A model generated the notes under the pieces. The model saw nothing but the letters and a program-made list of their open reading frames with translations. It did no database searches and was not told where the DNA came from. A program made the translations under genes and the position numbers. From Hansschlegelia beijingensis (GTDB lineage: Bacteria > Pseudomonadota > Alphaproteobacteria > Rhizobiales > Methylopilaceae), in contig NZ_JACIDR010000002.1 in assembly GCF_014196425.1 (NCBI RefSeq), positions 124,001 to 188,000 on the forward strand: a DNA stretch of 64,000 nucleotides. The letters run 5' to 3'. Shown here one piece after another: positions 30,828 through 54,709 of the stretch. Position 1 is the first letter of the stretch. Every line of letters begins with the position of its first letter.

Positions 30828-30830
30828 TCC

Positions 30831-32778: not shown

Positions 32779-32802
32779 GTTGCCCTACGGAGCAAATCTT
32801 TC

Positions 32803-34056: not shown

Positions 34057-34065
34057 GGGCCGGCA

Positions 34066-34323: not shown

Positions 34324-34907
34324 ACGAGTGGGGCCGTCTGAAGCTCGTGACGGCTCCCGCGGCCGATCCGGTCACGCTGGCCGAGGCGAAGAAGCACCTT
34401 CGCGTCATGCACGACGACGAGGACGCGCTGATCAGCATGCTGATCAAGGCGGCCGCCGCGCAGATCGAGGGCCCCTCCGGGATCGGCGTCGCGCTCGTCA
34501 CCCAGACGTGGCGGCTGTCGCTCGACGGCTTTCCCTGCGAGATCGAAATCCCGCTCACGCCAGTGTCCGCGGTCGACAGCGTCACCTTCAAGGACGCCGC
34601 CGGCGCAGATGTCGCTTTCACCGACTTCGCCGTCGACCTGGACGCCTCACCGACCCTCGTCGCGCCCGCCTACGGCGCGACCTGGCCTGTCCCGCGCTGC
34701 GAGCGCGGCAGCGTCAAGGTCGAGTTCACAGCAGGCTACGGCGCGCCCAGCGACGTCCCGGCAGACCTGCGCGCCGCTGTGCTGCTGATCGTCGGCCACC
34801 TCTACGAAAACCGCGAGGCGGTCGTCCTGTCCAATCAGCAGCCGTTCGAGATGCCGATGGCGGTCGACTCCATCCTCAATCGCTACCGCGTCGGGCGCTT
34901 CGGCTGA
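34320..34907 (+). CDS. head-tail connector protein
   Basis: A 195-residue connector of the phage gp6/phiE125-gp8 type: LVTAPAADPVTLAEAKKHLRV, DALISMLIKAAAAQIEG, and the helical C-terminal VPADLRAAVLLIVGHLYENREAVV. It forms a ring under the portal. Position between capsid and closure genes is canonical. Confidence 0.88.
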   Translation: MNEWGRLKLVTAPAADPVTLAEAKKHLRVMHDDEDALISMLIKAAAAQIEGPSGIGVALVTQTWRLSLDGFPCEIEIPLTPVSAVDSVTFKDAAGADVAFTDFAVDLDASPTLVAPAYGATWPVPRCERGSVKVEFTAGYGAPSDVPADLRAAVLLIVGHLYENREAVVLSNQQPFEMPMAVDSILNRYRVGRFG

Positions 34908-34931
34908 CCCGCAGACAGCACCAAGGAAGCC

Positions 34932-35366
34932 ATGCCCACCCGCGACATCCATAGCGACATCCACGTCGTCCCGCTGATCGTGCCCGTTGCGGCGCGCACC
35001 GACAACACCGCGATCGTCTCCGCGATCATCGACACGCTCGGCTACGGCGCGTGCGAACTCGTGCTCGTCACCGGCGCGAACACGGACGCGAACGCGACCT
35101 TCGCGACTCTGGTCGAGGACGGCGAGGCCTCCAACCTCTCCGACGCGGCAGCGGTCGCCGACCAGTACCTGATCGGCACCGAGGCGCTCGCGAGCTTCAC
35201 GTTCGCCGACGACAACGAGTGCCGCAAGATCGGCTACAAGGGCACGAAGCGCTACGTGCGCCTGACGGTCACGCCGTCCGGCAACGACTCCGGCAACATC
35301 TTCCTGTCGGGCGTCGCGATCCTCGGCCACCCGGCCACCACGCCGACCGCCAACCCGCCGCAGTAA
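34932..35366 (+). CDS. hypothetical phage structural protein
   Basis: A 144-residue protein: IHVVPLIVPVAARTDNTAIV, IIDTLGYGACELVLVTGANTDANATF, YVRLTVTPSGNDSGNIFLSGVAILG. This pattern occurs in Rhizobiales and Rhodobacterales phages between connector genes, perhaps as a head fibre or minor capsid protein. No biochemical role is known to me. Confidence 0.7.
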   Translation: MPTRDIHSDIHVVPLIVPVAARTDNTAIVSAIIDTLGYGACELVLVTGANTDANATFATLVEDGEASNLSDAAAVADQYLIGTEALASFTFADDNECRKIGYKGTKRYVRLTVTPSGNDSGNIFLSGVAILGHPATTPTANPPQ

Positions 35367-35368
35367 GC

Positions 35369-35587
35369 GTGCCCTGGCTGCGGTTTTCGCGCCAGTTCGA
35401 CTGGGACCCTCCCGAGTTGTCGGGGCGCGTCACGATTTCCTACTCCGCCGGTTCGACGGTCCTCGTGAGGCGCGCATGCGCCGCCGCGGCGATCGCGGCC
35501 GGCGCCGGCGCTGAAACGGAGCGGCCAGATGACGGCGGGACGCCTGCGCGACCTGGTCGCATTCGAGGCCGCCCAGGACGCCGATGA
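35369..35587 (+). CDS. small phage protein of the head-tail region
   Basis: A 72-residue protein from a GTG start two bases after the previous stop: PWLRFSRQFDWDPPELSGRV, TISYSAGSTVLVRRACAAAAIAAG. The W-L-R-F...F-D-W and R-R-A-C-A-A-A-I-A-A-G pattern is shared by tiny proteins at this place in many Rhizobiales phages. It overlaps the closure gene by 59 bases in another frame. Role unknown. Confidence 0.65.
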   Translation: MPWLRFSRQFDWDPPELSGRVTISYSAGSTVLVRRACAAAAIAAGAGAETERPDDGGTPARPGRIRGRPGRR

Positions 35588-35885
35588 CGGCGGGGGCTCG
35601 ACACGCGGCGGCTTCGCCGAGGTGTTCCGGGCGAACGCCGGAATCGTGTTCCTGCGCGGCTCAGAGCCGGTCGTGGGGCAGCGTCTGCAGGGCATCCAGC
35701 CGGTAGTGATCACAGTGCGCGACTGCATCGCGGTCACGTCCGTCGCCGACGACTGGCGCATTCGGGACGTCCGCTCCGGCGCGACCTTCAACATCCGCGC
35801 GATCACGCCGAACGACCGGCGGAGCTACGTGGACTTCCTCTGCGAGGCCGGCCGTCCCGATGGCGACGAAAGTAATCGGCCTTGA
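35529..35885 (+). CDS. head-tail adaptor (head closure) protein
   Basis: A 118-residue beta-barrel protein of the SPP1 gp16/HK97 closure family: MTAGRLRDLVAFEA, VFRANAGIVFLRGSEPVVGQRLQ, WRIRDVRSGATFNIRAITPNDRRSYVDFLCE. It plugs the connector after packaging. Overlaps the next gene by 26 bases. Confidence 0.85.
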   Translation: MTAGRLRDLVAFEAAQDADDGGGSTRGGFAEVFRANAGIVFLRGSEPVVGQRLQGIQPVVITVRDCIAVTSVADDWRIRDVRSGATFNIRAITPNDRRSYVDFLCEAGRPDGDESNRP

Positions 35886-36366
35886 GCGTCTGAGGCGAAA
35901 GCTCGGCCGGCTGCCCATCGAAGTCCGCACGCAGATGCGCAAGGACATCGCGAAGGGTGCCGACGAGATCGTGGCCATGCAGCGGGCGCTCGCGCCCGTG
36001 GAAGACGGCGACCTGAAGCGGTCGATCAGTTGGACCTTTGGCGAGGCTCCGCCGACCAGGGCGACCGGAGCGCCGCGTATCAAGCGCTCGACCTTCGTGC
36101 CTGGCGATAACGATATCAGGGCGACTATCTACGCCGGCGACGACGTGGCCTTCTACGCTAGATGGGTCGAGTTCGGCACCGCGCCGCACTCGCTCGCCAA
36201 GGGCGCCGATCGGACGCGGAACAAGCTGCAGGACGTCGGCGGCTGGCACCCCGGCGCCAGGCCGCGCCCCTTCTTCTTCACACCCTACCGCACGCTCAAG
36301 AAGCGCGTCGTCTCGCGCATCTCGCGCGGCATTCGTAAGGCCGCGCGCAAGGTGGCGAGATCATGA
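35860..36366 (+). CDS. HK97 gp10-like tail completion protein
   Basis: A 168-residue protein: LERLRRKLGRLPIEVRTQMR, QRALAPVEDGDLKRSI, the typical ARWVEFGTAPHSLAK and a basic C-terminus (IRKAARKVARS). This is the HK97-gp10-like family at the head-tail joint. Four-base overlap with the following gene. Confidence 0.85.
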   Translation: MATKVIGLERLRRKLGRLPIEVRTQMRKDIAKGADEIVAMQRALAPVEDGDLKRSISWTFGEAPPTRATGAPRIKRSTFVPGDNDIRATIYAGDDVAFYARWVEFGTAPHSLAKGADRTRNKLQDVGGWHPGARPRPFFFTPYRTLKKRVVSRISRGIRKAARKVARS

Positions 36367-36770
36367 GCCCAGACTGGGAGCTTCAGAAGGCGATCGTCGC
36401 CAAGCTGAAGACGAGCGCCGGCCTGAAGGACCTGATAGGCGACCCGCCGCAGATCGCGCAGCAGGCGTCCGCCAGCACCGCGCGCCCCTACATCCACATC
36501 GGCGAGAGCCAGAGCGTCGGCGTCTTCGCCGACTGCGTCCGCGCCGAAGAGATCTACGTCGACCTGCATATCTGGTCGGACACTGAGAGCTTCGCCGAGG
36601 TCAAGCAGATCATCGGCGTGATTGTCGACGTCCTTCACGACGCCGACCTTGAAATCGCCGGCGGTCACATCGCCGCCCTGCGCTTCCGCAACGCGCGGAC
36701 GCTCCGCGACCCGAACAGCATCAGCCGGCACGGCGTCGCCACCTTCCGCGCGATCGCGCAACGCACCTGA
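36363..36770 (+). CDS. DUF3168 tail terminator protein
   Basis: A 135-residue protein of the DUF3168 family: WELQKAIVAKLKTSAGLKDLIGD, YIHIGESQSVGVFADCVRAEEIYVDLHIWS, VATFRAIAQ. Family members cap the tail tube end at the head joint. Confidence 0.87.
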   Translation: MSPDWELQKAIVAKLKTSAGLKDLIGDPPQIAQQASASTARPYIHIGESQSVGVFADCVRAEEIYVDLHIWSDTESFAEVKQIIGVIVDVLHDADLEIAGGHIAALRFRNARTLRDPNSISRHGVATFRAIAQRT

Positions 36771-36819
36771 TCACCACAATCGCGCCGCCCGCGGCGCTCC
36801 ATTACGACGGAGGGCCTTG

Positions 36820-37269
36820 ATGGCCGACGACAAGATCCGCCGGGGCACGCTGCTGACCATCAAGGTCGGCGACGGCGCTTCGCCCGAAGTGTTCACGAAG
36901 ATCTGCGGTCTTCAGACCAAGTCCTTCAACCAGTCGGCGAACATGTCGGAGCACGTTCCGACCAACTGCGCCAACCCGGACGCCGTGAAGGCCGTTCGGC
37001 GCATCAAGCAGAGCAAGGGCGCGGAGCTGACCGGCAGCGGCTACTTCCTCTCCGAGAATCGCGCAACGCTCCAGGTGCTCTTCGACTCGCCGGACGCGAG
37101 CAACGTCCGCATCGCGGTCGAAGTCCCGCTCGCCGACGGCGGCGGCTGGTACGAAGGTCTGTTTCACCTCTCGACCTTCAGCGTCACCGGCGGCGACGAG
37201 ACGATGCTCGAGGCCGAGATGACCTGGCAGTCCGACGGCGACTACGCCTGGACCGACGCGACGGCCTGA
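36820..37269 (+). CDS. major tail tube protein
   Basis: A 149-residue protein: RRGTLLTIKVGDGASPEVFTKIC, FNQSANMSEHVPTNC, LTGSGYFLSENRATLQVLFDSP and GGWYEGLFHLSTFSVTGGD. The pattern fits the GTA/HK97-like tail tube. AGGGCC with CGGAGG lies just before the ATG at 36820. Tail chaperone genes follow at once, as expected. Confidence 0.88.
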   Translation: MADDKIRRGTLLTIKVGDGASPEVFTKICGLQTKSFNQSANMSEHVPTNCANPDAVKAVRRIKQSKGAELTGSGYFLSENRATLQVLFDSPDASNVRIAVEVPLADGGGWYEGLFHLSTFSVTGGDETMLEAEMTWQSDGDYAWTDATA

Positions 37270-37271
37270 TC

Positions 37272-37673
37272 ATGGCGCGCGGCGAGACGACATTCGACTG
37301 GGCGGACGGCGAATACACGTTCGCCCTTCCGCTCGGCCAGGTCGAGGAGCTTCAGGAGAAGGTCGGCTGCGGCCCGTACTCGCTTCTCCGCCGGCTCCAG
37401 GACGGCACGTGGCAGCAGAGCGACATCCGCGAGACGCTCCGCCTCGGACTGATCGGCGGCGGTCAGGTCAAGCCGGTTGAGGCCATGCGCCTGGTCCGCG
37501 CCTACGTGGACGAGCGGCCGCTCCTAGAGAACGTGCCGGCGGCGACCGCGGTCATCCTGGCCGCCCTGGTGACGCCCGAAAACGAGCCCCAGCCGGGGGG
37601 AGGCGAGGCGGAGGAGGCGACGACCGAATCTCCTTCGCCGACATCCGAGGCCTCGCCGCCGCCATCGGTCTAG
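37272..37673 (+). CDS. GTA gp10-like tail assembly chaperone
   Basis: A 133-residue protein of the GTA-gp10 group: TTFDWADGEYTFALPLGQVEELQEKVGCGPYSLLRRL, LRLGLIGGGQVKPVEAMRLVRAYVDERPL. The last 30 residues are low-complexity (PGGGEAEEATTESPSP). It coats the tape measure with its extended partner. A slippery heptamer at 37595-37601 would fuse part of the chains to the next reading frame. Confidence 0.88.
   Translation: MARGETTFDWADGEYTFALPLGQVEELQEKVGCGPYSLLRRLQDGTWQQSDIRETLRLGLIGGGQVKPVEAMRLVRAYVDERPLLENVPAATAVILAALVTPENEPQPGGGEAEEATTESPSPTSEASPPPSV
37595..37601 (+). promoter_or_regulatory. candidate -1 ribosomal frameshift site GGGGGGA
   Basis: In the zero frame this reads G-GGG-GGA, the X-XXY-YYZ arrangement that allows both tRNAs to slip back one base. 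An inverted repeat (GGCGAGGC 37602-37609 with GCCTCGCC 37650-37657) follows and could stall the ribosome, although it begins closer than usual. The frame reached encodes the second tail chaperone domain. Confidence 0.7.
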
Positions 37674-37807
37674 CGCCCAGCGAAATGCTGCGGATGACGA
37701 TCTGGGAGTTCTCCGCGGCCGTCGATGGCTGGAAGAAGTCCCAAGGCATCGAAGACGATCTGCCGCCGCCGGACCGGGCCAAGATGCTCGAAATGCTGCG
37801 CGACTGA
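37601..37807 (+). CDS. second tail assembly chaperone domain, made by -1 frameshift
   Basis: In the -1 frame the codons after the slippery site read RRGGGGDDRISFADIRGL, then AAIGLAPSEMLRMTIWEFSAAVDGWKKS and end DRAKMLEMLRD. The G-L-x-P-x-x-x-L-x-M-T-x-x-E pattern fits the Phage_TAC_6 (GTA g10.1) chaperone. No ATG, GTG or TTG occurs in this frame between about 37553 and 37684, so independent initiation of the full domain is unlikely. The fusion would be about 178 residues. A short product from ATG 37685 cannot be excluded. Confidence 0.75.
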   Translation, partial: RRGGGGDDRISFADIRGLAAAIGLAPSEMLRMTIWEFSAAVDGWKKSQGIEDDLPPPDRAKMLEMLRD

Positions 37808-37827
37808 TCCTCAACACCACGCATTCC

Positions 37828-37860
37828 AACGGCCGTTGCATTCGCAGCGGCCGTTTTCTT
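37828..37860 (+). terminator. stem-loop with T-rich tail before the tape measure gene
   Basis: AACGGCCG (37828-37835) pairs with CGGCCGTT (37848-37855), followed by TTTTCTTTT-type sequence. It stands directly before the ribosome-binding site of the tape measure gene. Confidence 0.7.
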
Positions 37861-37875
37861 TTGAGGTGAGCTGCT

Positions 37876-40800
37876 TTGGCTGACGATCTTGAACGTCTCG
37901 TCGTCCAGCTCGAGGCGTCGCTCACCAAGTACGAGAAGGAGCTGCGGCGCGCCGGCGGCGTCGCCGACAGCACGGCGAAGCGCGTCGAGGCGCGCTTCTC
38001 GCAGATGAACAAGCGGCTGGACGGCCTGTCGGCCGGCCTCGGCCGCAACCTGACGGCGTCGCTCGGCGCCATCGGCAGCGCGCTCGCCATCAAGGAGGTG
38101 GCGAACTACGCCGACGCCTGGACGCGTGCGAAGAACAGCCTCGCGGTCGCGGGCGTCACCGGCGCCAAGCAGGAGCAGGTCCTCGAGGCGCTGTTCGCCA
38201 GCGCGCAGAAGAACGCGGCGCCGATCGGCGCTCTGACGTCGCTCTACGGTGCGGCCGCGCAGGCGCAGAAGGAACTCGGCGCGAGTTCCGAGCAGCTCAT
38301 CACCTTCACGGACGGCGTCGCCGTCGCGCTGAAGGTCGCCGGCAAAAGCTCGACCGAGGCGCGCGGTGCGCTCGTCCAGCTATCGCAGCTTCTCGGCTCA
38401 TCGCGCGTCATGGCGGAGGAGTTCAACAGCGTCAACGAGGGCGCGCGCCCGATCCTGATGGCGGTCGCCGCCGGGCTGGATGCCGCCGGCGGGTCGGTCT
38501 CCAAGCTCAAGCGCCTCGTCACAGAGGGCGCGGTCTCCAACCGGCAGTTCTTCGAGGCGTTCCTGAAGGGGATGCCCGTCATTCAGGCGATGGCGAAGAA
38601 CGCCACGCAGACGCTGGCGCAGGGCTACACGAAGGTCGAGAACGCCCTCACCAAATACATCGGAGAGCAGGACCAGTCGCTTGGCGCGACGGTCGTGCTC
38701 TCTAAGGCGCTCAACGCGCTCGCCGACAATTTCGACGAGGTCGCCGACGCCACGCTGAAGGTCGCGGCGATCATCGCCGCCGCGCTCGTCGGCCGTTCGA
38801 TCGGCGGCATGGTGGCGAGCCTCGGCATCGCGATTCCGGCCGTGATCCGCTTCGTCGCCGCGCTGCGCTCCTTTGCGACCGCGCGTGTGGCGCTCACCGG
38901 GCTGTCGGCTGCCGCAGGACCCGTCGGGGCCGTTCTTGGCGTCGCGGCGGCGGCTGGGCTGTATCTCTACGAGCAGAGCCAGAAGGCGGCCGAGGGCGCG
39001 CTCCGCGCGAGCGAAGCCATCGCGGCGATGGGTGATAAGGCCAAGGGCTCGGCGAAGGACATCCGCGACCTGGTCGACGAGATGGCCGCGCTAAGCCGCA
39101 CGAAGCTTACGGCCGAGATAAAGGACACATCGAACCTCATCGCCCAGCAGGCCGACGCGGTGCGCGCGGCCAACCCGTTCGCGCCGATCGGTGGCCGCGT
39201 CGGGCGCGGCCGCGGACAGGTCGCCCCGTCCGGCGCCGACCTCGAGTTCAACCGCGCCACCGAGAAGTTCCTCAACGGCGGGTCGCTCGCCGACTACCAG
39301 AAGGCGCTCGACGACCTCGCCAAGCGGTATCCGCAGCAGGTGCAGAAGCTCGCCGAGGCGCAGAAGGCCGCGGAGCTCTACACCAGGGCGATCCAGCGCC
39401 GCGCCATGCAGGACAAGGCGCTGGCGCAGCAGGAGTCGAAGGACACCTACACCGGCATCAAGCGCGTCCAGGGCGAGTCCAGCAAGGGCGAGCAGGAGCG
39501 GGCCGAGAAGCGCGGCGACGAGACGCGGGACTTCTTCCGCGAGCGCGACGTCGAGCAGAACAAGACCGATCGCGAGAAGGACATCGACAAGCGCGTCGAC
39601 GAGATCGTCGCGGCGATGGAGAAGGCCGGCAAGGCCATCGACAAGGCCGCGGTGCGGCTGCGCGCCGAGACCGAGATCGACAAGGAGTTCGCGCAGAAGC
39701 AGACCGCCGAGTTCAGCGGAGACGCGGTCAAGTCTTACGTCGACCGTGTCGTGAAGGCGGAGAGCGGCGGCAAGGCCAACGCCAAGAACCCCTATTCGTC
39801 CGCGACCGGTGTCGGCCAGTTCATCGAGGAGACATGGCTCCGCCTGTTCCGAAAATACTATCCGGAGCAGGCAGGCTCTATGGGCCGAGACGCGATTCTT
39901 GCGATGCGCAAGAACGCCGACGTCTCCCGGAACATGATCGAGGCCTACGCAAAGGAGAGCGCCGAGGCGCTTCGCAACGCGGGGCTCGCGGTCACGGAGG
40001 CGAACCTCCACCTGGCGCACTTCCTGGGGGTCGGCGGCGGCAAGAAGCCGGGCGCGATTGAGGCGCTGAAGGCCGACCCGAACGCGAGCGCGTCCGCGGT
40101 CCTCGGCGCCGACGTCGTCTCCGCCAACAAGGGCGTCTTCAAGAACGACAGGGTCAGCGACGCGCTCGACTACGCGGACCGCCGCGCGAACGCCACGCGG
40201 TACGCCGCGGGCGACCTCACGCCCCAGGAGAAGACGGACAAGGAGTTCGCCGACACGCTGCGCGACAGCGACCAGCGCACCGCCGCGATCAATCGCGAGG
40301 CGGAGGCGATCGGCAAGCTGACCTACGCCCGCGAGTACGCCGCCGAGAAGGCCCGCCTGCTCGAGGAGATCGAGAAGGACGGCGCGAAGGCGACGCCCGA
40401 GCAGATCCAGTCGATCGAGGCGAAGGCTGATGCCTACGCCAAGGCGCAGACCAACGTCGAGACGCTCAAGACCTCCTACGAGAGCCTGCGCGACGCGGAG
40501 AGCTTCTTCGCGGAGGGCGTGACGTCGGCCTTCACCGACATCATCACGGGCGCCTCGTCGGCCAAGGACGCGATCCGCAAGCTGGCGTCGTCGTTCCTCG
40601 AGAGCGGCCTGCAGGCCCTTCTCATGGGCAAGGGCCCGCTCGCCGGCCTGTTCGGCACGGCGTCCGCCGACGGCGGCACGGGCGGCCTGTTCGGGGCGCT
40701 GTTCGGCGGTCTGTTCGCCGAGGGCGGCGTGATGACGCCGAGCGGGCCGCGGAAGCTGTCCAAGTTCGCGCGCGGCGGGAAGTCCCAGACGGCGGCGATC

Positions 40801-41085
40801 TTCGGCGAGGCCGGGCCGGAGGCGGCGGTGCCGCTGCCCGACGGCCGGCGCATCCCGGTCAACCTGCGCGTGCCCAACATCGGCAAGCCCTCCGGCGCGC
40901 GGCGCCCGCCCTCCAGCGGGTCGCTGACGGTCAAGACGTCGATCGACCTGACCGGCGCGAACGGCGACGAGACGATCCGGCGCATCTCGAAAGAGGCGGC
41001 GGAGGCTGGCGTGGCCAAGGGCCTCACCGCCTACGACCGGAAGTTCAACAACCGGATCGACTACGCCGACAAGCACGAGAGGTGA
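37876..41085 (+). CDS. tail tape measure protein with transglycosylase-like domain
   Basis: A 1069-residue protein. The N-terminal 250 residues are the TMP-like part (LERLVVQLEASLTKYEKEL, NYADAWTRAKNSLAVAGVTG, RVMAEEFNSVNEGARPILMAVAAGL). Hydrophobic helices lie at about 290-370. Residues 620-760 include a lysozyme-like fold (VVKAESGGKANAKNPYSS, ATGVGQFIEETW). A coiled-coil stretch and a glycine-rich end (LFGALFGGLFAEGGVM) complete it. TTG start at 37876 follows GAGGTGAG. It sets tail length and probably opens peptidoglycan during DNA entry. Confidence 0.92.
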   Translation: MADDLERLVVQLEASLTKYEKELRRAGGVADSTAKRVEARFSQMNKRLDGLSAGLGRNLTASLGAIGSALAIKEVANYADAWTRAKNSLAVAGVTGAKQEQVLEALFASAQKNAAPIGALTSLYGAAAQAQKELGASSEQLITFTDGVAVALKVAGKSSTEARGALVQLSQLLGSSRVMAEEFNSVNEGARPILMAVAAGLDAAGGSVSKLKRLVTEGAVSNRQFFEAFLKGMPVIQAMAKNATQTLAQGYTKVENALTKYIGEQDQSLGATVVLSKALNALADNFDEVADATLKVAAIIAAALVGRSIGGMVASLGIAIPAVIRFVAALRSFATARVALTGLSAAAGPVGAVLGVAAAAGLYLYEQSQKAAEGALRASEAIAAMGDKAKGSAKDIRDLVDEMAALSRTKLTAEIKDTSNLIAQQADAVRAANPFAPIGGRVGRGRGQVAPSGADLEFNRATEKFLNGGSLADYQKALDDLAKRYPQQVQKLAEAQKAAELYTRAIQRRAMQDKALAQQESKDTYTGIKRVQGESSKGEQERAEKRGDETRDFFRERDVEQNKTDREKDIDKRVDEIVAAMEKAGKAIDKAAVRLRAETEIDKEFAQKQTAEFSGDAVKSYVDRVVKAESGGKANAKNPYSSATGVGQFIEETWLRLFRKYYPEQAGSMGRDAILAMRKNADVSRNMIEAYAKESAEALRNAGLAVTEANLHLAHFLGVGGGKKPGAIEALKADPNASASAVLGADVVSANKGVFKNDRVSDALDYADRRANATRYAAGDLTPQEKTDKEFADTLRDSDQRTAAINREAEAIGKLTYAREYAAEKARLLEEIEKDGAKATPEQIQSIEAKADAYAKAQTNVETLKTSYESLRDAESFFAEGVTSAFTDIITGASSAKDAIRKLASSFLESGLQALLMGKGPLAGLFGTASADGGTGGLFGALFGGLFAEGGVMTPSGPRKLSKFARGGKSQTAAIFGEAGPEAAVPLPDGRRIPVNLRVPNIGKPSGARRPPSSGSLTVKTSIDLTGANGDETIRRISKEAAEAGVAKGLTAYDRKFNNRIDYADKHER

Positions 41086-41088
41086 GGC

Positions 41089-41793
41089 ATGGCCATTCTC
41101 AAGAATTGGCCGTGCCTCATCATGGGGTCCGAGTCCGACGACTGGCGCCTGGTGGGCGTCACCGAGGGCGACCGGACGGTGGCGGGCTTCCCGCTCTTCC
41201 GGCGCCTCGATGGCGGCGGTCTCTGGACCCTGACCCTTTCCGACATCCTGATCTCGACGCCTGACGAGATCCGCACCTGGGACGCGATCACCGGCCAGAT
41301 GGACGAGGGGGTGACCCCCTTCGCCGTGCCGTACCTCATCTCGGCCACGCAGCCCTTCGTGGACAGCGCCCGGAGCGCTCCGGTTCCCCACAGCGACGGC
41401 GCCACGCACAGCGACGGCTCGCCGTTCGGCACACGGCTGATCGACTGCGCCATCGAGCAGGGCGCGGACCTCCGGGCGACGCGGGTGAAGATCAGGCGCA
41501 AGCGCGCCGCGCGGTTTCGCGGCGGCGAGCGCTTCTCCGTCACGCACGCGGACTGGGGCCCGCGGCTGCACAAGGTCATAGGCGTGGTGGACGGCCAGGA
41601 CTCGGCCGTCACCACCGTCGACATCCGGCCGCCGCTCCGGTTCCCCGTGAGCGCCGGGACGGACATCGAGATGGACCGGCCGCTCTGCACGATGACGATC
41701 TCCGATCCTTCGGGCGCGGGCGGTCCGCTGCAACAGCGGCGCTTCGGCACCCGCACGATCTCCTTCGTCGAATTCGGCAGGCTTCCAGAATGA
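41089..41793 (+). CDS. distal tail protein
   Basis: A 234-residue protein, ILKNWPCLIMGSESDDWRLVG, RTVAGFPLFRRLDGGGLWTLTL, ending RRFGTRTISFVEFGRLPE. Its place, right after the tape measure, is that of the distal-tail (Dit) or GTA gp12-like protein. The beta-rich sequence agrees, but I recognise no named family. Overlaps the next gene by four bases. Confidence 0.75.
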   Translation: MAILKNWPCLIMGSESDDWRLVGVTEGDRTVAGFPLFRRLDGGGLWTLTLSDILISTPDEIRTWDAITGQMDEGVTPFAVPYLISATQPFVDSARSAPVPHSDGATHSDGSPFGTRLIDCAIEQGADLRATRVKIRRKRAARFRGGERFSVTHADWGPRLHKVIGVVDGQDSAVTTVDIRPPLRFPVSAGTDIEMDRPLCTMTISDPSGAGGPLQQRRFGTRTISFVEFGRLPE

Positions 41794-42398
41794 CGCCGTG
41801 GTCCGCTGAGGAGGAGGCGGCCTTCGCCTCCGGGTCGATCGGCTACGGCATCTTCTTCCACCTTCGCACGGACCCGCCGGTGCGGCTCTGGGCCGGCATC
41901 GGCGACTGCGAGGGCGAGATCAACGCCATCGACCAGACGTCCGAGATCTACCGCGGCGCGGGCACGCTGACGGACATCCCGGCCGTCCAGAGCATGATCA
42001 ACGGCAAGTCCGAGCGCATCGCCTTCCGGCTTTCCGGCGTCGACGATCGCGTCCTGGAGCTGGCGCGCGGGGAGCGCGCGGCGATCAAGGGCAAGACCGT
42101 TCACCTCGGCTTCGGCGTCTTCCGCCGCGACTGGAGCTCGCTGCTCGGCCCGGTCCGATGGGTGTGGCGCGGTCGCGCCGACTACATGGAAGAGGTCATC
42201 GGTGAGGCTGACGACATCTCGGCGCCGCTGCGCCGTTCAGTGCAGCTTTCGGTCGGCTCTATGCTGACATCGCGAAAGCGCCCTCAGTTCTCCTTCTATA
42301 CAGACAAAGACCAGCAGTCGCGGTCTCCGGGAGATCGCTTTTGCGAGCGAACGCCCAACTACGTCCAAGAATACGCCAAGATCTTCGGCCCGACGTAG
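41790..42398 (+). CDS. tail tip-associated protein
   Basis: A 202-residue protein, SGSIGYGIFFHLRTDPPVRLWAG, IGDCEGEINAIDQTSEIYRGAG, ending RTPNYVQEYAKIFGPT. In position and style it corresponds to the tail hub/baseplate protein between Dit and the peptidase in GTA-like tails (DUF2163-like place). Its 3' end overlaps the next gene by 58 bases. Confidence 0.72.
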   Translation: MTPWSAEEEAAFASGSIGYGIFFHLRTDPPVRLWAGIGDCEGEINAIDQTSEIYRGAGTLTDIPAVQSMINGKSERIAFRLSGVDDRVLELARGERAAIKGKTVHLGFGVFRRDWSSLLGPVRWVWRGRADYMEEVIGEADDISAPLRRSVQLSVGSMLTSRKRPQFSFYTDKDQQSRSPGDRFCERTPNYVQEYAKIFGPT

Positions 42399-42799
42399 GC
42401 GAATACATCGCCCTCGCCGGCCGGAGGCCCTGGGCGTGGGGCGAACACGACTGCACGCTGTTCGCCGCGGGTTGGGCTCTCTCCGCCCGCGGCGTCGACC
42501 TCGCCGTCGGCTTCCGGGGCTCATATGCGACCGCCGAAGAGTGCCGCGCGCTGTTGAAGCGCGAGGGCGGCCTCGTGGCGCTGGTGAGCCGCGCAGCGGC
42601 CGCGCACGGCCTCTCGCCAACTGACGCGCCAGGCGCCGGCGACGTCGGCGTCGTTCGTGGCGCGATCGAGTGGCGCGGCCGCGTCCTGCGCCCGCCGACC
42701 GCCGCCGTCTGCGTCGGCCCCGCGCGATGGGCGCTCCTCACCGAGGCCCGCGGCGTCGCGATCGCCGACCTGCCCGTCCTATCCGCCTGGAGCGTCTGA
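42341..42799 (+). CDS. DUF6950/NlpC-P60-like tail peptidase
   Basis: A 152-residue protein with a cysteine-peptidase-like start, RPWAWGEHDCTLFAAGWAL (the cysteine following H-D), a later VGVVRGAIEWRG and AVCVGPARWALLTEARG. The layout matches the DUF6950 family, thought to be NlpC/P60-related tail proteins that cut peptidoglycan during entry. TTG start at 42341 with GGGAG upstream. Confidence 0.75.
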   Translation: MRANAQLRPRIRQDLRPDVGEYIALAGRRPWAWGEHDCTLFAAGWALSARGVDLAVGFRGSYATAEECRALLKREGGLVALVSRAAAAHGLSPTDAPGAGDVGVVRGAIEWRGRVLRPPTAAVCVGPARWALLTEARGVAIADLPVLSAWSV

Positions 42800-42802
42800 T
42801 CT

Positions 42803-44965
42803 ATGCCGCAGGCAATAGGCGCCGCGATCTTCGCGGCCTTTGGCGCTGCCGGTGTGACTGCTGGCGCGACGGCCATCGCAGGTACCACGCTGGCGTCGAT
42901 CGTCGGCGCCGTCGCCCTGACGGCGGCGGCCGGCGTGCTGCAGTACCTGCTGGCGCCCAAGCCCCCGGTGCCGAAGGCCCAGGCCGGCTATTACCCGCTC
43001 CGGCAGACCCGCCCGCCGCGCATCACGGGCTACGGCGAGGCCCGCCTCGCCGGCTCCTACATGTTCTACGAGACGCTCGGCGACAACTCGTACGACGTCC
43101 TGGCGCTGCACCACGGCAAGATCAAGGAGTTCACGCGGTTCTACCTGCACGACGACGTCGTGACGCTGAACCCCGACGGCACCATCGCGACGTCGTCGCT
43201 GGACCACGACTACCATCCGGAGACGTCGCAGGTCGTCCTGCTAACGCGGCGCGGCGAGGCCACCGAGACCGCCTTCGGCATGGTCGTCGATGCGGCCGCT
43301 GCAGAGGCCGCGAGCAGCGGCAAGGCACAGATGTGGACCGCCGCGCACCGCGGCGACGGCATCGCGTCTCTGGCGCTCTACTGCAAGACGCGAAGCGCGA
43401 AGAGCTTCCCGGCCAACTACCCGCGCGGCGTCCACATCCCGTCGGTCGCGGCGCGCCTCAGCTACATCTACGACCCCCGTGCAGAGGGCCAGGTCCACGG
43501 CGAGCCGGAAACCTACGAGTGGAGCGACAACTGCGCACTGGCGATCGCCGACTACCTCACGAATGAGGATCACGGCGTCGGGCTGACCTGGGAGGAGTGC
43601 TTCCACGACGGCGCCGAGATCGCGGTCGAGGCCGACATCTGCGACGAGCTGGTGCCGCGCAAGGCCGGCGGCACGCGCCGGCGCTATCGCCTTGGCGGCG
43701 CGTTCCAGCACGACAACACGCCCGCCGACGTGCTCGCCACGATGCTGGCGACCTGCGACGGCTGGCTGGCCGAGCGCGGCGACGGATCGCTCCGCCTGCT
43801 CGTCGGCAAGTATCGCGCGCCGACCGTCACCTTCCGGACCGAGCACGCTAAGGCCTACTCGGTCACCTACGGCGTCGGCGACGAAGACGCCATCAACGAG
43901 CTGACCCCGACCTACACCTCGCCGGACCACGAGTTCGCCGAGGTCGAGGGCGAGTCCTGGCGTGACGAGGAGGACATCTCCGAGCGCGGCCGCACGCGAT
44001 CCGAACGACTGGACCTGAAGTGGGTCCAGGATCACGGCCAGGCGCGCATGCTTTGCAAGCGCGAGATGCTGCGGTCCAGCAGCCGGCTGCGCGGGACGCT
44101 GGTCACGACGCTCTACGGCCTCGTCGGCCTCGGCGAGCGCTGGATCAAGCTCGAGATCGACAATCACCCGGACCTCGCGGACCTGGTCGTCGAGGTCGTC
44201 ACCTCGCCGCGCATCGACTTCATGTCGGGCTCGGTGACCTTCGAGTGGCGATCGGTCAACCCGAACGCGGTCGACGCCTGGGACCCGAACACCGAGGAAG
44301 GCGACCCGCCGCCTGTGCCGGTGCGCAGCGCGTCGAAGACGCCGGCGATGCCGACTGGCGTCGAGGTGGTGATCGAAGGCTCTGACAACGCCGGCATCTA
44401 CGCCGATGTCGTCTTCGACTACGACGCCAAGGACTCGATGACGTTCCTCGTCGATCTTCGGCAGGTCACCGACGACACGGAGTCGTCCTGGTCGACGCTG
44501 ACCTATGACGGTGAGAGCGTCGAGATCGACGAAGTCCTCGACACCGTCAGCCTGTCCACCCAGGGACTTGCGCCGCGGACCTCTTACGAGGGCCGAATCC
44601 AGGTCAAGACTGGCTCCGGCAAGCTGTCGGCCTACTCGCCGATCTTCACCTTCGACACGTTCACCGTGGCGCCTGAATCGCCGACCGACTTCCGGTGGGA
44701 CGATGTCGAGGGGCTGCTGCGGTGGCGGGCGTCCGCCTCCACGCAGAGCGTCCTCTCGCGGGTCTTCCGCGCCCCTGCGGGCGATCCGTTCGTGGACGCC
44801 GATGAGATCACGCCCTCCGGAGGCGTGCCTGGCGAGCCGCTTCAGCAGGTGTCCTTTGACCCGCCCGACTATTCGGACGGGTGGTACTGGGTCGTGGCCG
44901 AAAGCGCCGCCGGTCTCAGATCTTCTCCCACAGGTCCGCTGACAGTCGAGACGACCGTCATTTGA
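42803..44965 (+). CDS. tail tip/host specificity protein with fibronectin-like end
   Basis: A 720-residue protein. N-terminal hydrophobic stretch of about 45 residues (AIGAAIFAAFGAAGVTAGAT), a tail-tip core (RITGYGEARLAGSYMFYETLGD, YDVLALHHGKIKEFTRFYLHDD, LSYIYDPRAEGQ, DNTPADVLATMLATCDGWLAERGDGSLRLLVG) and a C-terminal fibronectin III-like part (LAPRTSYEGRIQVKTGSGKLS). It corresponds to lambda J and makes host contact at the tail tip. Confidence 0.88.
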   Translation: MPQAIGAAIFAAFGAAGVTAGATAIAGTTLASIVGAVALTAAAGVLQYLLAPKPPVPKAQAGYYPLRQTRPPRITGYGEARLAGSYMFYETLGDNSYDVLALHHGKIKEFTRFYLHDDVVTLNPDGTIATSSLDHDYHPETSQVVLLTRRGEATETAFGMVVDAAAAEAASSGKAQMWTAAHRGDGIASLALYCKTRSAKSFPANYPRGVHIPSVAARLSYIYDPRAEGQVHGEPETYEWSDNCALAIADYLTNEDHGVGLTWEECFHDGAEIAVEADICDELVPRKAGGTRRRYRLGGAFQHDNTPADVLATMLATCDGWLAERGDGSLRLLVGKYRAPTVTFRTEHAKAYSVTYGVGDEDAINELTPTYTSPDHEFAEVEGESWRDEEDISERGRTRSERLDLKWVQDHGQARMLCKREMLRSSSRLRGTLVTTLYGLVGLGERWIKLEIDNHPDLADLVVEVVTSPRIDFMSGSVTFEWRSVNPNAVDAWDPNTEEGDPPPVPVRSASKTPAMPTGVEVVIEGSDNAGIYADVVFDYDAKDSMTFLVDLRQVTDDTESSWSTLTYDGESVEIDEVLDTVSLSTQGLAPRTSYEGRIQVKTGSGKLSAYSPIFTFDTFTVAPESPTDFRWDDVEGLLRWRASASTQSVLSRVFRAPAGDPFVDADEITPSGGVPGEPLQQVSFDPPDYSDGWYWVVAESAAGLRSSPTGPLTVETTVI

Positions 44966-48113: not shown

Positions 48114-48458
48114 ATGGCGAAGAGCACCAGCATTCCGGTGCGCAGAGGGGACGATGTCACGCAGCCGCTCGAATGGGAGGCTGGCGGATCGCCTGTCGAC
48201 CTCACCGGCTCGACCCTCTGGATGAACATCCGCGTCGACTACCTGAACGGCGTGCTCAAGCTCACGCAGGGGAACGGCCTGACGGTCGAGGACCCCACCA
48301 CGGGCGTGATCCTGGTGTCCCTGACGGAGCAGCAGACCGGGTGGCTCTACCCCGGCCAGAAAAGCACCTTCGAGCTCAAGCGGCGCATCGGAGGCAAGAA
48401 GACGACCGCCATGGACGGCGTGTTCGACGTGACGGAGGCGGTCAACCCCAATGACTGA
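48114..48458 (+). CDS. BppU-like baseplate/Ig-like domain protein
   Basis: A 114-residue protein, TSIPVRRGDDVTQPLEWEAGG, VDLTGSTLWMNIRV, TGVILVSLTEQQTGWLYPGQKS, VFDVTEAVNPND. This pattern matches the N-terminal Ig-like domain of BppU-type baseplate proteins. It overlaps the fibre gene by eight bases, so the two probably form one appendage. Confidence 0.78.
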   Translation: MAKSTSIPVRRGDDVTQPLEWEAGGSPVDLTGSTLWMNIRVDYLNGVLKLTQGNGLTVEDPTTGVILVSLTEQQTGWLYPGQKSTFELKRRIGGKKTTAMDGVFDVTEAVNPND

Positions 48459-50115
48459 CGTCATCAAGGTCATCATCGACGAGCCCCAGGTCATCAAGGT
48501 CATCGAGGCTGGTCCGCAGGGTCCGGCCGGCCCGGCCGCCGATACGTCGGCGCTCCTCCCGCGCGCGGGCCTTGCGGCAGCGAAGGACGCCGCCGACCTC
48601 ACCGCAATGCAGAGTGACGCCGAAGTTCTGGCGGTCTTCCTGCAGAGCTCGAAGACCTATGACATCGGGTCGGCGATCCCGGCAAAGCCGGTCTTCGGGC
48701 CGGGCAAGCTGGTGCGATCGGGCGCCACCCTCGGCGGCTTTCAGCCGGCTTTCGACGCCTACCGCTGCAACTCGATCTATGCGCCCGACGACCCTATCAA
48801 GGCGCTCGGGTTCCCGGCCACGCCGGGGCACTACAGCACGATTTACTCCCCCGGCTCAAAGGCGCACCTCGCCGCCCGCCTGACGCGCAGCACGCTTTTC
48901 GGCGTCAGGAATATCGAGAACCCCGGCGCCGATGTCGATCGGGTGGACCTGTTCGGCGACGGAGCCGGGCGGCGCATGATGTTCGGCGAACGAATTACGG
49001 GCCTCGGGACCATCGCGCTCGAGCAGGCAGGCGCTCAGGAGTTCACCGGCCATAACTTCTGGTTCGACGGCGGCGGCTCCGGCGTCGCAATCGCCCCGGG
49101 AAGCCCCGGCTGGGATTATCAGGGGCTCGAGACGCGCAATCCCGGCATCGGCGCGAAGATCCTCGCTGCCGCCGTCCCGGCCGCGTCACGCGCCGAGGTC
49201 GCCTATCTGACGGCCGTCTCGCGCGACGCCATGAACCTGACGATCAAGGGCGTCGACAGCTTCGCCGGCGGCTACCGCGCGCTCGCCTATAACTTCCTCG
49301 CCTACCGATCGAACGCGATTGGTACCGACATCTTCCGCGACGGTGTGTTCCTCAAAGAGGCCACCGGCATGGGCCACCGCAACGGCATGCAGTGGCAGGA
49401 GGGGTCCTATGTCGGGCTGTTCGGAACCTACAACGCGTTCGCGACGGTCCGCGGCAGCAACGTCTTCATGCTGGGCCGCAACAACGCAGGGAACGTCCCC
49501 GACATCAACGGCTCGGTGCTCATCGGCATCGATCAGCTCAACGCCGGGGCCTACACGTCACTCGCGGATGTATTCGCGCTCGGGACCAAGGCCACGCCAC
49601 TGCTCGCGGGCAAGTTCGACACCGGCCGCGTCGGGATCAACTGCCTGCCTGAGAACGTGAAGAGGCGACTCCACATCTTCGAGAGCGACAGCGGGTGCGG
49701 AACGCCCGCCTCGCTGGACAGCGGCTCGCTCGTGATCGAGCGCAACACCCACACCGGCATCCTTGTCCAGACCCCGAACACGTCGATCGCCGGGATCTAC
49801 TTTGGCGATCCCGAGGACGACCAGGCCGGCGGCTTCACCTATCACCACGGCACCGACCAGGCTCGCGTTCGGGCCGGGGCCACCAACATCGCGTTCTTCT
49901 CGACCACCGCGATCAACATCGCCGCGCCGATCTTCCGAAGCGGATCGCAAGTCGTGAACACCCGTAAGACCGGCTGGGGCACCGCCACCGGCACTGCCAC
50001 CAGGACCACCTTCAACACCGCCACCGTCACGCTCCCGCAGCTAGCCGAGCGGGTCAAAGCGCTTCTCGACGACCTTCACTTCGCCACCGCCGGCCACGGC
50101 CTGATTGGAGCCTGA
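48451..50115 (+). CDS. tail fibre protein
   Basis: A 554-residue fibre. It starts VIKVIIDEPQVIKVIEAGPQ followed by a short collagen-like GPQGPAGPAA. The long body is beta-rich with asparagine and glycine turns (FGTYNAFATVRGSNVFMLGRNN), suggesting a beta-helix trimer, and ends with a helical TVTLPQLAERVKALLDDLHF. It has no recognised enzymatic site. Receptor binding is the likely task. Confidence 0.82.
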   Translation: MTDVIKVIIDEPQVIKVIEAGPQGPAGPAADTSALLPRAGLAAAKDAADLTAMQSDAEVLAVFLQSSKTYDIGSAIPAKPVFGPGKLVRSGATLGGFQPAFDAYRCNSIYAPDDPIKALGFPATPGHYSTIYSPGSKAHLAARLTRSTLFGVRNIENPGADVDRVDLFGDGAGRRMMFGERITGLGTIALEQAGAQEFTGHNFWFDGGGSGVAIAPGSPGWDYQGLETRNPGIGAKILAAAVPAASRAEVAYLTAVSRDAMNLTIKGVDSFAGGYRALAYNFLAYRSNAIGTDIFRDGVFLKEATGMGHRNGMQWQEGSYVGLFGTYNAFATVRGSNVFMLGRNNAGNVPDINGSVLIGIDQLNAGAYTSLADVFALGTKATPLLAGKFDTGRVGINCLPENVKRRLHIFESDSGCGTPASLDSGSLVIERNTHTGILVQTPNTSIAGIYFGDPEDDQAGGFTYHHGTDQARVRAGATNIAFFSTTAINIAAPIFRSGSQVVNTRKTGWGTATGTATRTTFNTATVTLPQLAERVKALLDDLHFATAGHGLIGA

Positions 50116-51492: not shown

Positions 51493-51588
51493 GCCGTAGG
51501 GGGCAGCCCTCAATCGCGATTGCGTGAACTCATCTTCTCAGTCCAACGAACGCAGGAACCTACGGACAGCCCCGTTCCTTCAAACCGC

Positions 51589-51813
51589 ATGCCTACGACC
51601 GTCAAAGCCAAGCTCGCGAAGATCGAGAGACATATCGACGAACGGGTCGCCCTGTTGGATCAGGAGGTTGACGCCGCCGCCGCCGCTCAGCGGGCGGGCT
51701 CCAACGGGGCGGTCCATCTTCGCCGCGCGCTAGTCTTACAAGCGACAATCAACTCGCTTCACGATGAAGCTGGCGCGCTGCGACGGTTGATGCCTAAGAC
51801 CGACCTTAGGTAG
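51589..51813 (+). CDS. small coiled-coil protein, paralogue 2
   Basis: A 74-residue protein, paralogue of 50701-50922: VKAKLAKIERHIDERVALLDQEV and HLRRALVLQATINSLHDEAGALRRL match it position by position. It is close to the defence cargo. Role unknown. Confidence 0.7.
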   Translation: MPTTVKAKLAKIERHIDERVALLDQEVDAAAAAQRAGSNGAVHLRRALVLQATINSLHDEAGALRRLMPKTDLR

Positions 51814-51972
51814 CAGGCGCACCAAGGACCGCACAGGCGTTCCGGACGCGGGCAGATGCAACATAGATGATGGTATGCGGCCGATTGAGAGCCGGGAGCG
51901 TTCACCGTATGTTCTCGGGCAAGATCGGCACTGGTTCGGTGCCTCCGCACGTATTAAGAAGGGACGTCGCCC

Positions 51973-52581
51973 ATGGGCACGACAGCGTCAGTCGGCAGCG
52001 CACGTGGGGCGGGTGCTACCAAGATGGTCAAGCCTGGGTTCAGCTTCGCCCGACTCGTTCTTGTGGCGTCCAGTTTGAGCCCGTTGTTCGTTTTGTGGGC
52101 CCTGCGAGGGACGCCGAGCGTCAGTGATGCCTACTGGATCCCAGCATGCGCGGCTATGTTTCTGCTGCCAAACGCCTTTCTTTGGGTGCTTGTCAAGCGG
52201 ACTCGGCGGTCGCATAACAATATAACGTTCAAGGTCCATGCTCCAAAAGACCAGCGGGAGCATCTGCTGGTTTATCTTTTTGCTATGCTCATACCTCTAT
52301 ACGACGCGAACATGGGATTTGGGCGCGATTTGGCGGCCGTGTCCGCGGCTCTCTTATTTATTGTTCTTCTATTCTGGCACTTAAACCTTCATTATATGAA
52401 CCTGTTCTTCGCCATTAAAGGCTATCAAATTTTCACGGTTGACGTTGCGGTGGACGGCGGCGACTCGCCAAACTTTGCCACATATGCTGTCATCTCAAAG
52501 AGGCGGCGACTTGAGGAAGGAACGACCTTAGTCGGCCTCAGGCTAGGCGGGAACGTCGTTCTGGATACCGCGACGAAATGA
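51973..52581 (+). CDS. kwaA: KwaA-like membrane protein (Kiwa defence system)
   Basis: A 202-residue membrane protein with four helices (about 25-46, 53-75, 96-116, 120-147) and a cytosolic C-terminal domain: LFFAIKGYQIFTVDVAVDGG, YAVISKRRRLEEGTTLVGLRLGGNVVL. Four helices plus a G-Y-x-x-(F/Y)-x-V...I-S-K-R tail is the KwaA pattern. In Kiwa, KwaA senses phage at the membrane and works with KwaB. AAGGGA precedes the start at 51973; M18 is an alternative. The gene overlaps kwaB by four bases. G+C is clearly below that of the phage structural genes. Confidence 0.78.
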   Translation: MGTTASVGSARGAGATKMVKPGFSFARLVLVASSLSPLFVLWALRGTPSVSDAYWIPACAAMFLLPNAFLWVLVKRTRRSHNNITFKVHAPKDQREHLLVYLFAMLIPLYDANMGFGRDLAAVSAALLFIVLLFWHLNLHYMNLFFAIKGYQIFTVDVAVDGGDSPNFATYAVISKRRRLEEGTTLVGLRLGGNVVLDTATK

Positions 52582-53486
52582 TTGAACAAGAGTTTGACTC
52601 ATCATCCATCAAGTCATTCCAGCTCGGCGTTAGTTTGTTTTCAGGTGAACGGTATTGGATCCCGACTGACACATCGGTTGACCCAACGTTCATGGACATG
52701 CTCTCGCGTACGATCGGAAGCATCAATGTGCGCTCAGGCGACTGGGAGGAGTTTTCTCTATCGCAGGAGTATGGTCGCACCGAGCGCGTCTTCACGCCTC
52801 TCTCGGACGAGATCTTCAAAAACCTCTCGGATATGTACCAAGCTGAGACATATCCGGACATGTCCAACCTCCTTGAGAACATTAACGAGGTCGATTACTA
52901 TTTCGTCGTATTTCACGACGGGAGGGATAGGAAATTCATCGGCGTTAGGCGTGCGGCGCAGCTGAAGAGCATCTTGGCAGCGCGCCACCGAATCATGCAG
53001 CTGATCGACAACACAATGTACTTGATAGAGAACCCTGTCTTTCGACTCGATAAGGACTTCGATGGACTGATAGGAGAGGGGCACATCTATTTCTCGAACT
53101 TCCAAAATATGGAGTATATAGCGAAGATCACGAACAAGGTGGCAAAGGCTGCCCAACAGCGCATTCCCGTGATTGCCGATAATGTGACATTCCTCGACTT
53201 TTCAGGCTTCGAGAACGACATTGAGAACCACCCTCGGACCGCTCGTCTTCTTGTTGCAATAAGCAAAAGACCGAACCTGGACAAGTATGATCGGGAGGAA
53301 ATCCTCCGGCAGGCCGCAGCGCAAGGAGTCGCTTTCGTAAACCATGGCAGCCCCCGACTAAAATGTCGCGCGGCTGATAAGCACAAGCTTCTTGAGGTGT
53401 TAGACGATAGACGCTGGATCTCGAGAAACGCGACCGATGGGCCCGTTCCTTACAGAGCACCAAGCCGCCAGAAGGCCAGAATCTAG
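52578..53486 (+). CDS. kwaB: KwaB-like DUF4868 protein (Kiwa defence system)
   Basis: A 302-residue soluble protein. Its middle part, NPVFRLDKDFDGLIGEGHIYFSN followed by FQNMEYI, is the characteristic DUF4868/KwaB segment, and the C-terminus (LLVAISKRPNLDKYDREEILRQAAAQG) fits the same family. Length is close to the usual 310-320. KwaB binds DNA and acts with KwaA against phages. Sampled sequence is about 50% G+C against about two-thirds in neighbours, with AT-rich codons (AGT, TTT, TCA), a sign of transfer. The pair forms one transcription unit. Confidence 0.78.
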   Translation: MIEQEFDSSSIKSFQLGVSLFSGERYWIPTDTSVDPTFMDMLSRTIGSINVRSGDWEEFSLSQEYGRTERVFTPLSDEIFKNLSDMYQAETYPDMSNLLENINEVDYYFVVFHDGRDRKFIGVRRAAQLKSILAARHRIMQLIDNTMYLIENPVFRLDKDFDGLIGEGHIYFSNFQNMEYIAKITNKVAKAAQQRIPVIADNVTFLDFSGFENDIENHPRTARLLVAISKRPNLDKYDREEILRQAAAQGVAFVNHGSPRLKCRAADKHKLLEVLDDRRWISRNATDGPVPYRAPSRQKARI

Positions 53487-53802
53487 GCAAGTTGGAGGGT
53501 CTTTGGACTTATCGCACTCAGGACCTGCGGCATGAACACCACGGCGATTCCCTCCGCGCCAACTTACTTCGGATGTTTGGCCTCTCTGTCACTGATTCCG
53601 ACCGCCGTCGCTTCTCATGGCGAGGATCTCGCCTTCGATCTCGTCGCTTGTGGCGTAGGATGAGGACGACGTTGGGCTCTGACATGAGCCGGACTTTGGT
53701 GGACCGGAGCGGTCGAGCGCTTCAGAACCTTGGTGCGCTTGCCACCTAAGGCCGCGACCGACTGGCTTAACCGGACGCCGCCTTCACGACCTGATCGTCA
53801 CC

Positions 53803-54007: not shown

Positions 54008-54709
54008 ATGACCGTGCTGGACATCCAGCGGCGCCTGAAGGCGCTCGGCCACGACCTCGGTAAGAGCGGAGCGGCGAAGGACGGCGTTGACGGCGACTTC
54101 GGCGGAAAGAGCCAGGCGGCGTTGTCGCTCAAGCCCACGACCGGCGCGCCGAAGCCCCTGCCGACCGCCGGCGTCTCGGCCGTTCCGGCCGCTTGGATGC
54201 CGGCCGCCAAGGTGGACCGCATCATCGTCCATTGGACGGCGGGTGGTCATAAGGCGAGCGCGCTCGACACGGAGCACTATCACCTCTTGATCGAGGCTGA
54301 CGGCGGCATCGTGCGGGGCAAGCCGTCGATCGACCTGAACGACCGCGGCGGCGTGAAGGCCGGTTACGCCGCGCACACGCTGAACTGCAACACCGGATCG
54401 ATCGGCGTCTCGCTCTGCTGCATGGCGGGCGCCGTCGAGAGCCCGTTCAAGGCCGGCTCAGCTCCGATGACGCGCGAGCAGTGGGATGAGCTCCCGCACG
54501 TCCTCGCCGCGCTTTGCCGGCGCTACGGCATCCCCGTGACGCCGAAGACCGTGCTGTCTCACGCCGAGGTTCAGGGGACGCTCGGGATCAAGCAGAAGGG
54601 CAAGTGGGACATCGCCCGTCTCGCGTTTGATCCGTTCGTCGTCGGCGCGCAGGCGGTCGGCGACCTGTTCCGCAAGCGTGCCGCGGCGCTGCTGGAGGCG
54701 GCGGCGTGA
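54008..54709 (+). CDS. endolysin, N-acetylmuramoyl-L-alanine amidase
   Basis: A 233-residue lysis enzyme. Residues 1-40 form a peptidoglycan-binding repeat (VLDIQRRLKALGHDLGK, GVDGDFGGKSQAAL). The amidase-2 domain follows: VDRIIVHWTAGG with the first zinc histidine, EHYHLLIEADG with the second, and VLSHAEVQGT with the third. It cuts the bond between muramic acid and L-alanine. No signal peptide, so release depends on a holin; holin-like genes follow 1 kb on. GCCCGGAGA lies just upstream. Confidence 0.93.
   Translation: MTVLDIQRRLKALGHDLGKSGAAKDGVDGDFGGKSQAALSLKPTTGAPKPLPTAGVSAVPAAWMPAAKVDRIIVHWTAGGHKASALDTEHYHLLIEADGGIVRGKPSIDLNDRGGVKAGYAAHTLNCNTGSIGVSLCCMAGAVESPFKAGSAPMTREQWDELPHVLAALCRRYGIPVTPKTVLSHAEVQGTLGIKQKGKWDIARLAFDPFVVGAQAVGDLFRKRAAALLEAAA

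Follow-up and report, generated by a model that had tools for sequence, protein, structure and literature searches.

Kiwa is a defense system made up of two proteins, KwaA and KwaB. In PMC12904381, KwaA tetramers bound by KwaB dimers were described as forming a lattice, in which KwaA is the membrane sensor of infection, whereas KwaB attaches to incoming DNA and, leaving it uncut, prevents its replication and late transcription. PMC11514479 states that Kiwa acts via a RecBCD-dependent pathway and that KwaB can act without KwaA. Moreover, Gam-like proteins were given as inhibitors of KwaB in PMC12649759. Mobile carriage has also been documented, as PMC9090908 places 220 of 1019 Kiwa systems in prophages, and PMC9122126 lists Kiwa in the cargo of P4 satellites.

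The stretch analyzed in this study, hereafter the window, comprises 64,000 nucleotides of the Hansschlegelia beijingensis genome, and related loci found in the searches are numbered with the prefix L. The pair of genes at 51973-53486 was considered, with a probability of roughly 87%, to be a complete Kiwa system of the PDLC00218/PDLC00228 subfamily that is carried as cargo in the late region of a prophage, acts as the studied Kiwa systems do, and protects both host and phage.

The kwaA and kwaB gene pair

The pair and the signals around it are as follows.

51973..52581, + strand: kwaA, a 202-aa inner-membrane protein with 4 predicted TM helices followed by a cytosolic beta-rich C-terminal domain
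52578..53486, + strand: kwaB, a 302-aa KwaB/DUF4868 protein
51885..51913, + strand: weak promoter-like site TTGAGA-17-TATGTT, upstream of kwaA
53803..53820, + strand: terminator-like hairpin followed by T, downstream of kwaAB

Both open reading frames (ORFs) were found where the earlier note had placed them, adjacent on the same strand and with the four-base overlap it described (52578-52581). Promoter-like sites in the region were at about the chance level (2 found, 1.1 expected), and terminator-like sites numbered 9 against 3.7 expected from shuffles. The dip in G+C content at the pair was also present, although the values of 0.527 (52001-53000) and 0.578 (53001-54000) were slightly higher than the 50% or so that had been claimed. 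Nearly all other parts of the window lay at 0.62-0.73, and 59001-60000 was the single kilobase with a value (0.505) below that of the Kiwa stretch.

In the case of KwaA, 11 KwaA models of PADLOC were matched and no other model, with E values up to 10 admitted; PDLC00218 was matched with E 1.9e-58 over model positions 7-184 of 186. Pfam gave no match for KwaA. The protein had been described as a four-helix membrane protein, and this agreed with four hydrophobic stretches in the hydropathy profile (residues 23-41, 56-74, 98-116, and 119-137) and with the AlphaFold model (pLDDT 79.7), in which four long helical regions precede a C-terminal part rich in beta structure. The models of both proteins were computed from 40-row alignments that contained the window protein and relatives from the fetched loci. 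When the KwaA model was searched against the PDB with Foldseek (E ≤ 0.001), all seven chains found were solved Kiwa KwaA, the best being 9mrx_A (E 4.7e-7). The superposition on solved KwaA was loose (TM-score 0.41-0.52, rmsd 8-10 Å), for which the orientation of the domains in the model may be a possible cause. At the sequence level, solved KwaA in the PDB was reached with E 0.17 by the single KwaA sequence and with 5e-4 by a profile of 40 KwaA sequences. The G-Y...I-S-K-R tail quoted in the earlier note was present in the sequence; G150 and I174 were nearly invariant and R177 was invariant in the 40-row alignment, and Y151, S175, and K176 were absent from the lists of its invariant and nearly invariant positions.

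KwaB matched PDLC00228 of PADLOC with E 1.5e-46, and the search with E values up to 10 returned 10 KwaB models and no other model. The Pfam family PF16162 was matched with 43.9 bits, above its cut-off of 26.3. The AlphaFold model (pLDDT 86.8) found six PDB chains under the same Foldseek threshold (E ≤ 0.001), all of them solved Kiwa KwaB, with the best match to 9mrx_D (E 1.3e-12, TM-score 0.65). With TM-scores of 0.61-0.66, the KwaB model was closer to its solved counterparts than the KwaA model was. Solved KwaB in the PDB was reached with E 0.0027 by the single KwaB sequence and with 2.5e-6 by the 40-KwaB profile. The DUF4868-like segment pointed out earlier, FRLDKDFDGLIGEGHIYFSN, corresponds to KwaB residues 155-174, within which L157, D158, F161, and D162 were nearly invariant in the 40-row alignment. 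The profiles and predicted folds therefore came out as the earlier note had anticipated, as 52578-53486 matched KwaB/DUF4868 models in both PADLOC and Pfam and the predicted KwaA and KwaB matched solved KwaA and KwaB, respectively. The gene pair, its homology to Kiwa, and its predicted topology and folds were established in this way.

The pair is nevertheless divergent. Against the NCBIfam KwaA/KwaB equivalogs NF041622 and NF041623, the proteins scored 47.6 of 100 and 22 of 200 bits, under both cut-offs, and by these scores kwaAB is classed as a Kiwa relative outside these equivalogs. The solved and equivalog types are ones that we take to be enterobacterial, and the distance from them that had been proposed was evident in the scores under the cut-offs and in the weak single-sequence matches to the PDB.

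Relatives and their surroundings

The KwaA alignment found 48 loci in genome contigs, ranging from Proteobacteria to archaea. A KwaB ORF stood beside KwaA in 43 of them (short in L073 and L114), and the overlap was exactly four bases in 25 of these 43 loci, as in the window pair, with ORF starts taken mechanically. Four of the loci lacking KwaB (L074, L078, L084, and L089) have 75 to 713 bp of sequence left after KwaA, and in L108 no KwaB was found despite enough sequence after KwaA. All 40 KwaB proteins of the alignment matched PDLC00228. The same search of viral contigs gave five loci, one of which is the window's own phage. KwaA-like ORFs are present in a viral contig of 167 kb (L118:7968-8543) and in one of 72 kb (L119:7800-8549); nearby, one weak, overlapping KwaB was found in L118 and none in L119. 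In a 31-kb IMG/VR contig (L116:1165-9498), a Kiwa of the same subfamily directly follows what appear by eye to be type I restriction-modification genes.

The searches with single sequences returned far less. Neither KwaA nor KwaB matched any of 50,697 phage records by tblastn (E ≤ 0.01). KwaB found only the identical viral contig in IMG/VR, no near relative in genome contigs, and 2 of 72,556 plasmid records. Matches were obtained in 3 of 397 genomes from the order and in 4 of 385 sampled from the class, the own genome being counted in both. PHROG families of unknown function matched both KwaA and KwaB; therefore, such proteins are already among the known phage families.

The nearest relative found was the Kiwa of Methylobacterium sp. 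B4 (NZ_QJJJ01000002.1, L067), in which KwaA is 70% identical (best segment 76%), KwaB is 70% identical, and the four-base overlap is likewise present. At the DNA level, it is 67% identical to the window over 52021-53472 only. Within 8 kb on each side, its neighbors are a resolvase, a RecD2-like helicase, an Mrr restriction enzyme, and Abi_C, and the ORFs read in that range, unlike those in the window, included no evident phage gene. As this relative sits among chromosomal defense genes, the subfamily is not specific to phages. Two Rhizobium plasmids (NZ_CP017242.1 and NZ_CP072867.1) also carry Kiwa, with KwaB approximately 36% identical over 99% and a KwaA ORF upstream; unlike the window's pair, these are located on plasmids of 431 and 520 kb, and one adjoins a type I restriction-modification system.

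The genome of the window holds a second Kiwa pair on another contig (C3:406794-407342; L001:501-2100 and L008:8795-10394), which is very unlike the prophage pair and belongs to another subfamily, PDLC00215/PDLC00237. In a single BLASTP comparison with the prophage pair, the best E values were 0.039 for KwaB and 2.1 for KwaA.

Prophage setting, cargo slot, and flanking repeat

The phage features that surround the pair are listed below.

22217..22228, + strand: putative attL, a 12-bp copy of the tRNA-Met 3' end (the tRNA-Met gene lies 1.5 kb past the window's right end)
28902..44965, + strand: packaging, head, and tail genes (terminase 28902, portal 30831, major capsid 32803, tape measure 37876, tail fibre 42803)
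48451..50115, + strand: weakly matched tail needle/spike-like protein (PHROG 1219, E 0.00029; PHROG 4636, E 0.0061), left neighbor of the pair
54008..54709, + strand: endolysin, an N-acetylmuramoyl-L-alanine amidase (PF01510, E 6.4e-15; PHROG 5867, E 1.4e-42), right neighbor of the pair

The pair lies between tail genes (48451-50115 and upstream) and lysis genes, as had been claimed, with the endolysin on its right. The terminase, portal, capsid, tape measure, tail fibre, and endolysin genes all consist of long open frames that were strongly matched by profiles. A tyrosine integrase is encoded at 61763-62773, and located at the window's right end and beyond it is a large serine recombinase, which runs into the tRNA-Met gene. 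Moreover, an IMG/VR viral contig of 40,674 bp, which spans 23307-63980 of the window according to its coordinates, was 100% identical over the four stretches compared, although this contig may have been predicted from DNA of the same strain. With the structural genes, the endolysin, the recombinase genes, the putative att repeat, and the viral contig, the prophage setting proposed in the earlier note was established.

The ends of the element were approached through repeats. The first att search (minimum 13 bp) gave no repeat over 15 bp and none at the tRNA. A targeted search (minimum 11) gave the 12-bp copy of the tRNA-Met 3' end, which occurs once in the window, against 0.02 expected. In this search, a 13-bp match at 1875 and a 12-bp match at 56539 correspond to the tRNA gene's opposite end, and another of 12 bp, at 60884, corresponds to sequence just outside the gene; none of these was preferred as att. 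The prophage was thus probably inserted at the tRNA-Met end, and the copy at 22217-22228 suggests an element of approximately 43.3 kb, both ends of which are putative.

Some other genes of the element were also noted. Genes for tRNA-Asn and tRNA-Arg lie at 26773-26926, approximately 2 kb upstream of the terminase gene and inside the putative prophage. An ATP-dependent DNA ligase (PF01068, PF04679), presumably LigD-ligase-like, is encoded at 57965-58912. The kilobase 59001-60000 contains ORFs 59042-59566 and 59427-59873, which have no clear family matches; in PADLOC, Csx23 was weakly matched by the former (E 0.0054), and the stretch is a candidate second cargo.

The site of the pair had been called a usual moron site. 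In 12 related prophage loci that were inspected among those found, the slot upstream of the endolysin contained cargo recognized by Pfam match in four: acyltransferases in L012 and L015, a glycosyltransferase accompanied by an ABC-2-like protein that fell slightly short of its Pfam cut-off in L019, and an HTH protein on the opposite strand in L058 (L011 is similar). L059 and L060 are two copies within a single genome, which is from the same genus, and in both the endolysin comes immediately after the tail gene. In 6 of the 12 loci, no cargo was recognized upstream of the endolysin. Because the slot holds differing cargo or none, the moron-site reading is supported for this phage group. Accordingly, the pair stands among phage structural and lysis genes at a site whose contents were shown to vary in related phages.

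The pair is also framed by an imperfect inverted repeat, next to a small repeated gene.

51551..51792, + strand: small repeated gene unit, also present at 50708-50904 and, with 86% identity, on contig C6
51801..51827, + strand: left arm of the inverted repeat, 27 bp, imperfect, overlapping the 3' end of a small repeated ORF
53728..53754, - strand: right arm of the inverted repeat, 27 bp, imperfect

The arms match at 24 of 27 positions and frame kwaAB over 1,954 bp end to end, with a G+C content of 0.54 between them. The best 24-mer pair had 22 matches, compared with at most 20 in 300 shuffles of 50101-54100, and 40 random placements in the window gave a best arm match of 19/24. At a spacing of 300-5000 bp, it was the sole inverted pair of such quality in the 64-kb window, and six of seven other stretches (three from this genome and four from relatives) were without such a pair, the seventh (L061) having several. 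A gapped alignment of wider flanks scored 48, against a highest value of 47 and a mean of 29.2 in 200 simple shuffles; since this score barely tops the shuffles, most of the repeat signal is in the 27 bp themselves. The repeat as a general border of Kiwa was rejected, as 39 other Kiwa loci with 600 bp available on both sides reached at most 18/24, compared with 22 here.

These arms raise the question of whether kwaAB entered the phage as a 1,954-bp non-autonomous cassette with 27-bp inverted repeats, moved by a transposase from elsewhere. The 24-bp core had no further copy in the genome at up to three mismatches, and an IMG/VR search with the core and two free positions found this phage only. 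By eye, no target-site duplication was seen in the flanks and no transposase was noticed among the ORFs of at least 60 aa between the arms. BLAST similarity between the small gene and its C6 copy ends at 51792 and falls short of the left arm by nine positions, but a second, looser alignment, with the nearer copy, extends to 51805 and takes in five bases of the arm; the left arm is therefore not a clean insertion border. The small gene has three copies in the genome (50708-50904, 51551-51792, and L057:7564-7802), and near the C6 copy is what we take from a motif to be a fragment of an IS3-type transposase. Such a cassette origin is considered quite improbable; if true, it would be a route for small defense systems to hop into prophage cargo slots. 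Kiwa is reportedly mentioned once in a survey of Tn7 cargo, and Kiwa as transposon cargo may well already be in print.

Mechanism, alternative readings, and comparison with known Kiwa systems

In the mechanism considered most likely from homology to the studied systems, kwaAB would be expressed in the lysogen and form a complex, in which inner-membrane KwaA tetramers would sense how an infecting phage disturbs the membrane. The KwaB dimers on KwaA would then bind the incoming phage DNA without cutting it, and the DNA-bound KwaB would block phage replication and late transcription. The prophage would so shield its host, and itself, from competing phages, and kwaAB probably protects the host from other viruses in this way, with a specificity that may differ from that of known Kiwa. 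As both proteins miss the equivalog cut-offs, this mechanism is borrowed from proteins with only 14-18% identity. Moreover, RecC had no match in the window's genome, while the control gave matches in 2 of 14 genomes, including E. coli. A pair of nearby PDDEXK_1 frames in the genome, 1989 and 1037 residues long, look like AddA and AddB. The lack of a RecC match counts against transferring the described RecBCD-dependent mechanism, and a divergent, phage-borne Kiwa in such a genome is useful for asking how general the link between Kiwa and RecBCD is.

Other readings of the locus were weighed against a Kiwa cargo. Adjoining the endolysin and including a four-helix membrane protein, the pair could resemble Kiwa by chance and have another function, such as that of a holin-type lysis pair. 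However, chance resemblance is excluded because the profile matches reach E 1e-46 to 1e-58, and the folds match those of KwaA and KwaB. Both genes are present in 43 of 48 related loci, and the surroundings of L067 and of the two Rhizobium plasmid loci, read with annotation or Pfam, are not lysis cassettes. The lysis-pair reading was rejected on profiles and folds and would be true only by an extraordinary coincidence. It is unlikely that the region is a prophage remnant and the pair a plain chromosomal defense gene. The phage gene search covered late genes, from packaging to lysis, so the prophage may be incomplete, and the tyrosine integrase together with the right-end serine recombinase suggests a mosaic. 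The genes from terminase to endolysin are, however, open and strongly matched, the tRNA 3'-end repeat is at a fitting place, and the identical viral contig argues for a phage even though it was possibly predicted from the same strain.

A rather unlikely reading, in our estimate, accepts a genuine Kiwa homologue but regards it as a narrow gene for superinfection exclusion or lysogeny stability, or as an unexpressed, promoterless gene of the late region. This would be in line with the location of kwaAB on the same strand as the late genes and with the chance level of promoter-like sites. Nevertheless, neither ORF is disrupted, the pair is succeeded by a terminator-like hairpin, the residues conserved across the 40 rows are retained, and the nearest relative resides among chromosomal defense genes. 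Considering the profile matches, the folds, and the phage gene setting, the assignment as a Kiwa system within a prophage, first made in the earlier note, is supported.

Compared with the solved Kiwa (9mrx, 9mrr, 9mrg, 9mtn, and 9nyu), which we take to be of E. coli origin, the pair shares in its models a four-helix KwaA with a cytosolic domain and the KwaB fold. Unlike the solved Kiwa, it is only 14-18% identical over the structural alignments, scores under the NCBIfam equivalog cut-offs, and occurs in a host genome without a RecC match. In comparison with prophage- and satellite-borne Kiwa at large, it is similarly carried by a phage, but it is divergent and has no match in the 50,697 phage records. 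Since a prophage setting was documented for about a fifth of Kiwa systems in PMC9090908, the biological surprise is small. Kiwa is a known system, of which the pair is a remote yet unremarkable member, and its location is of a kind already described.
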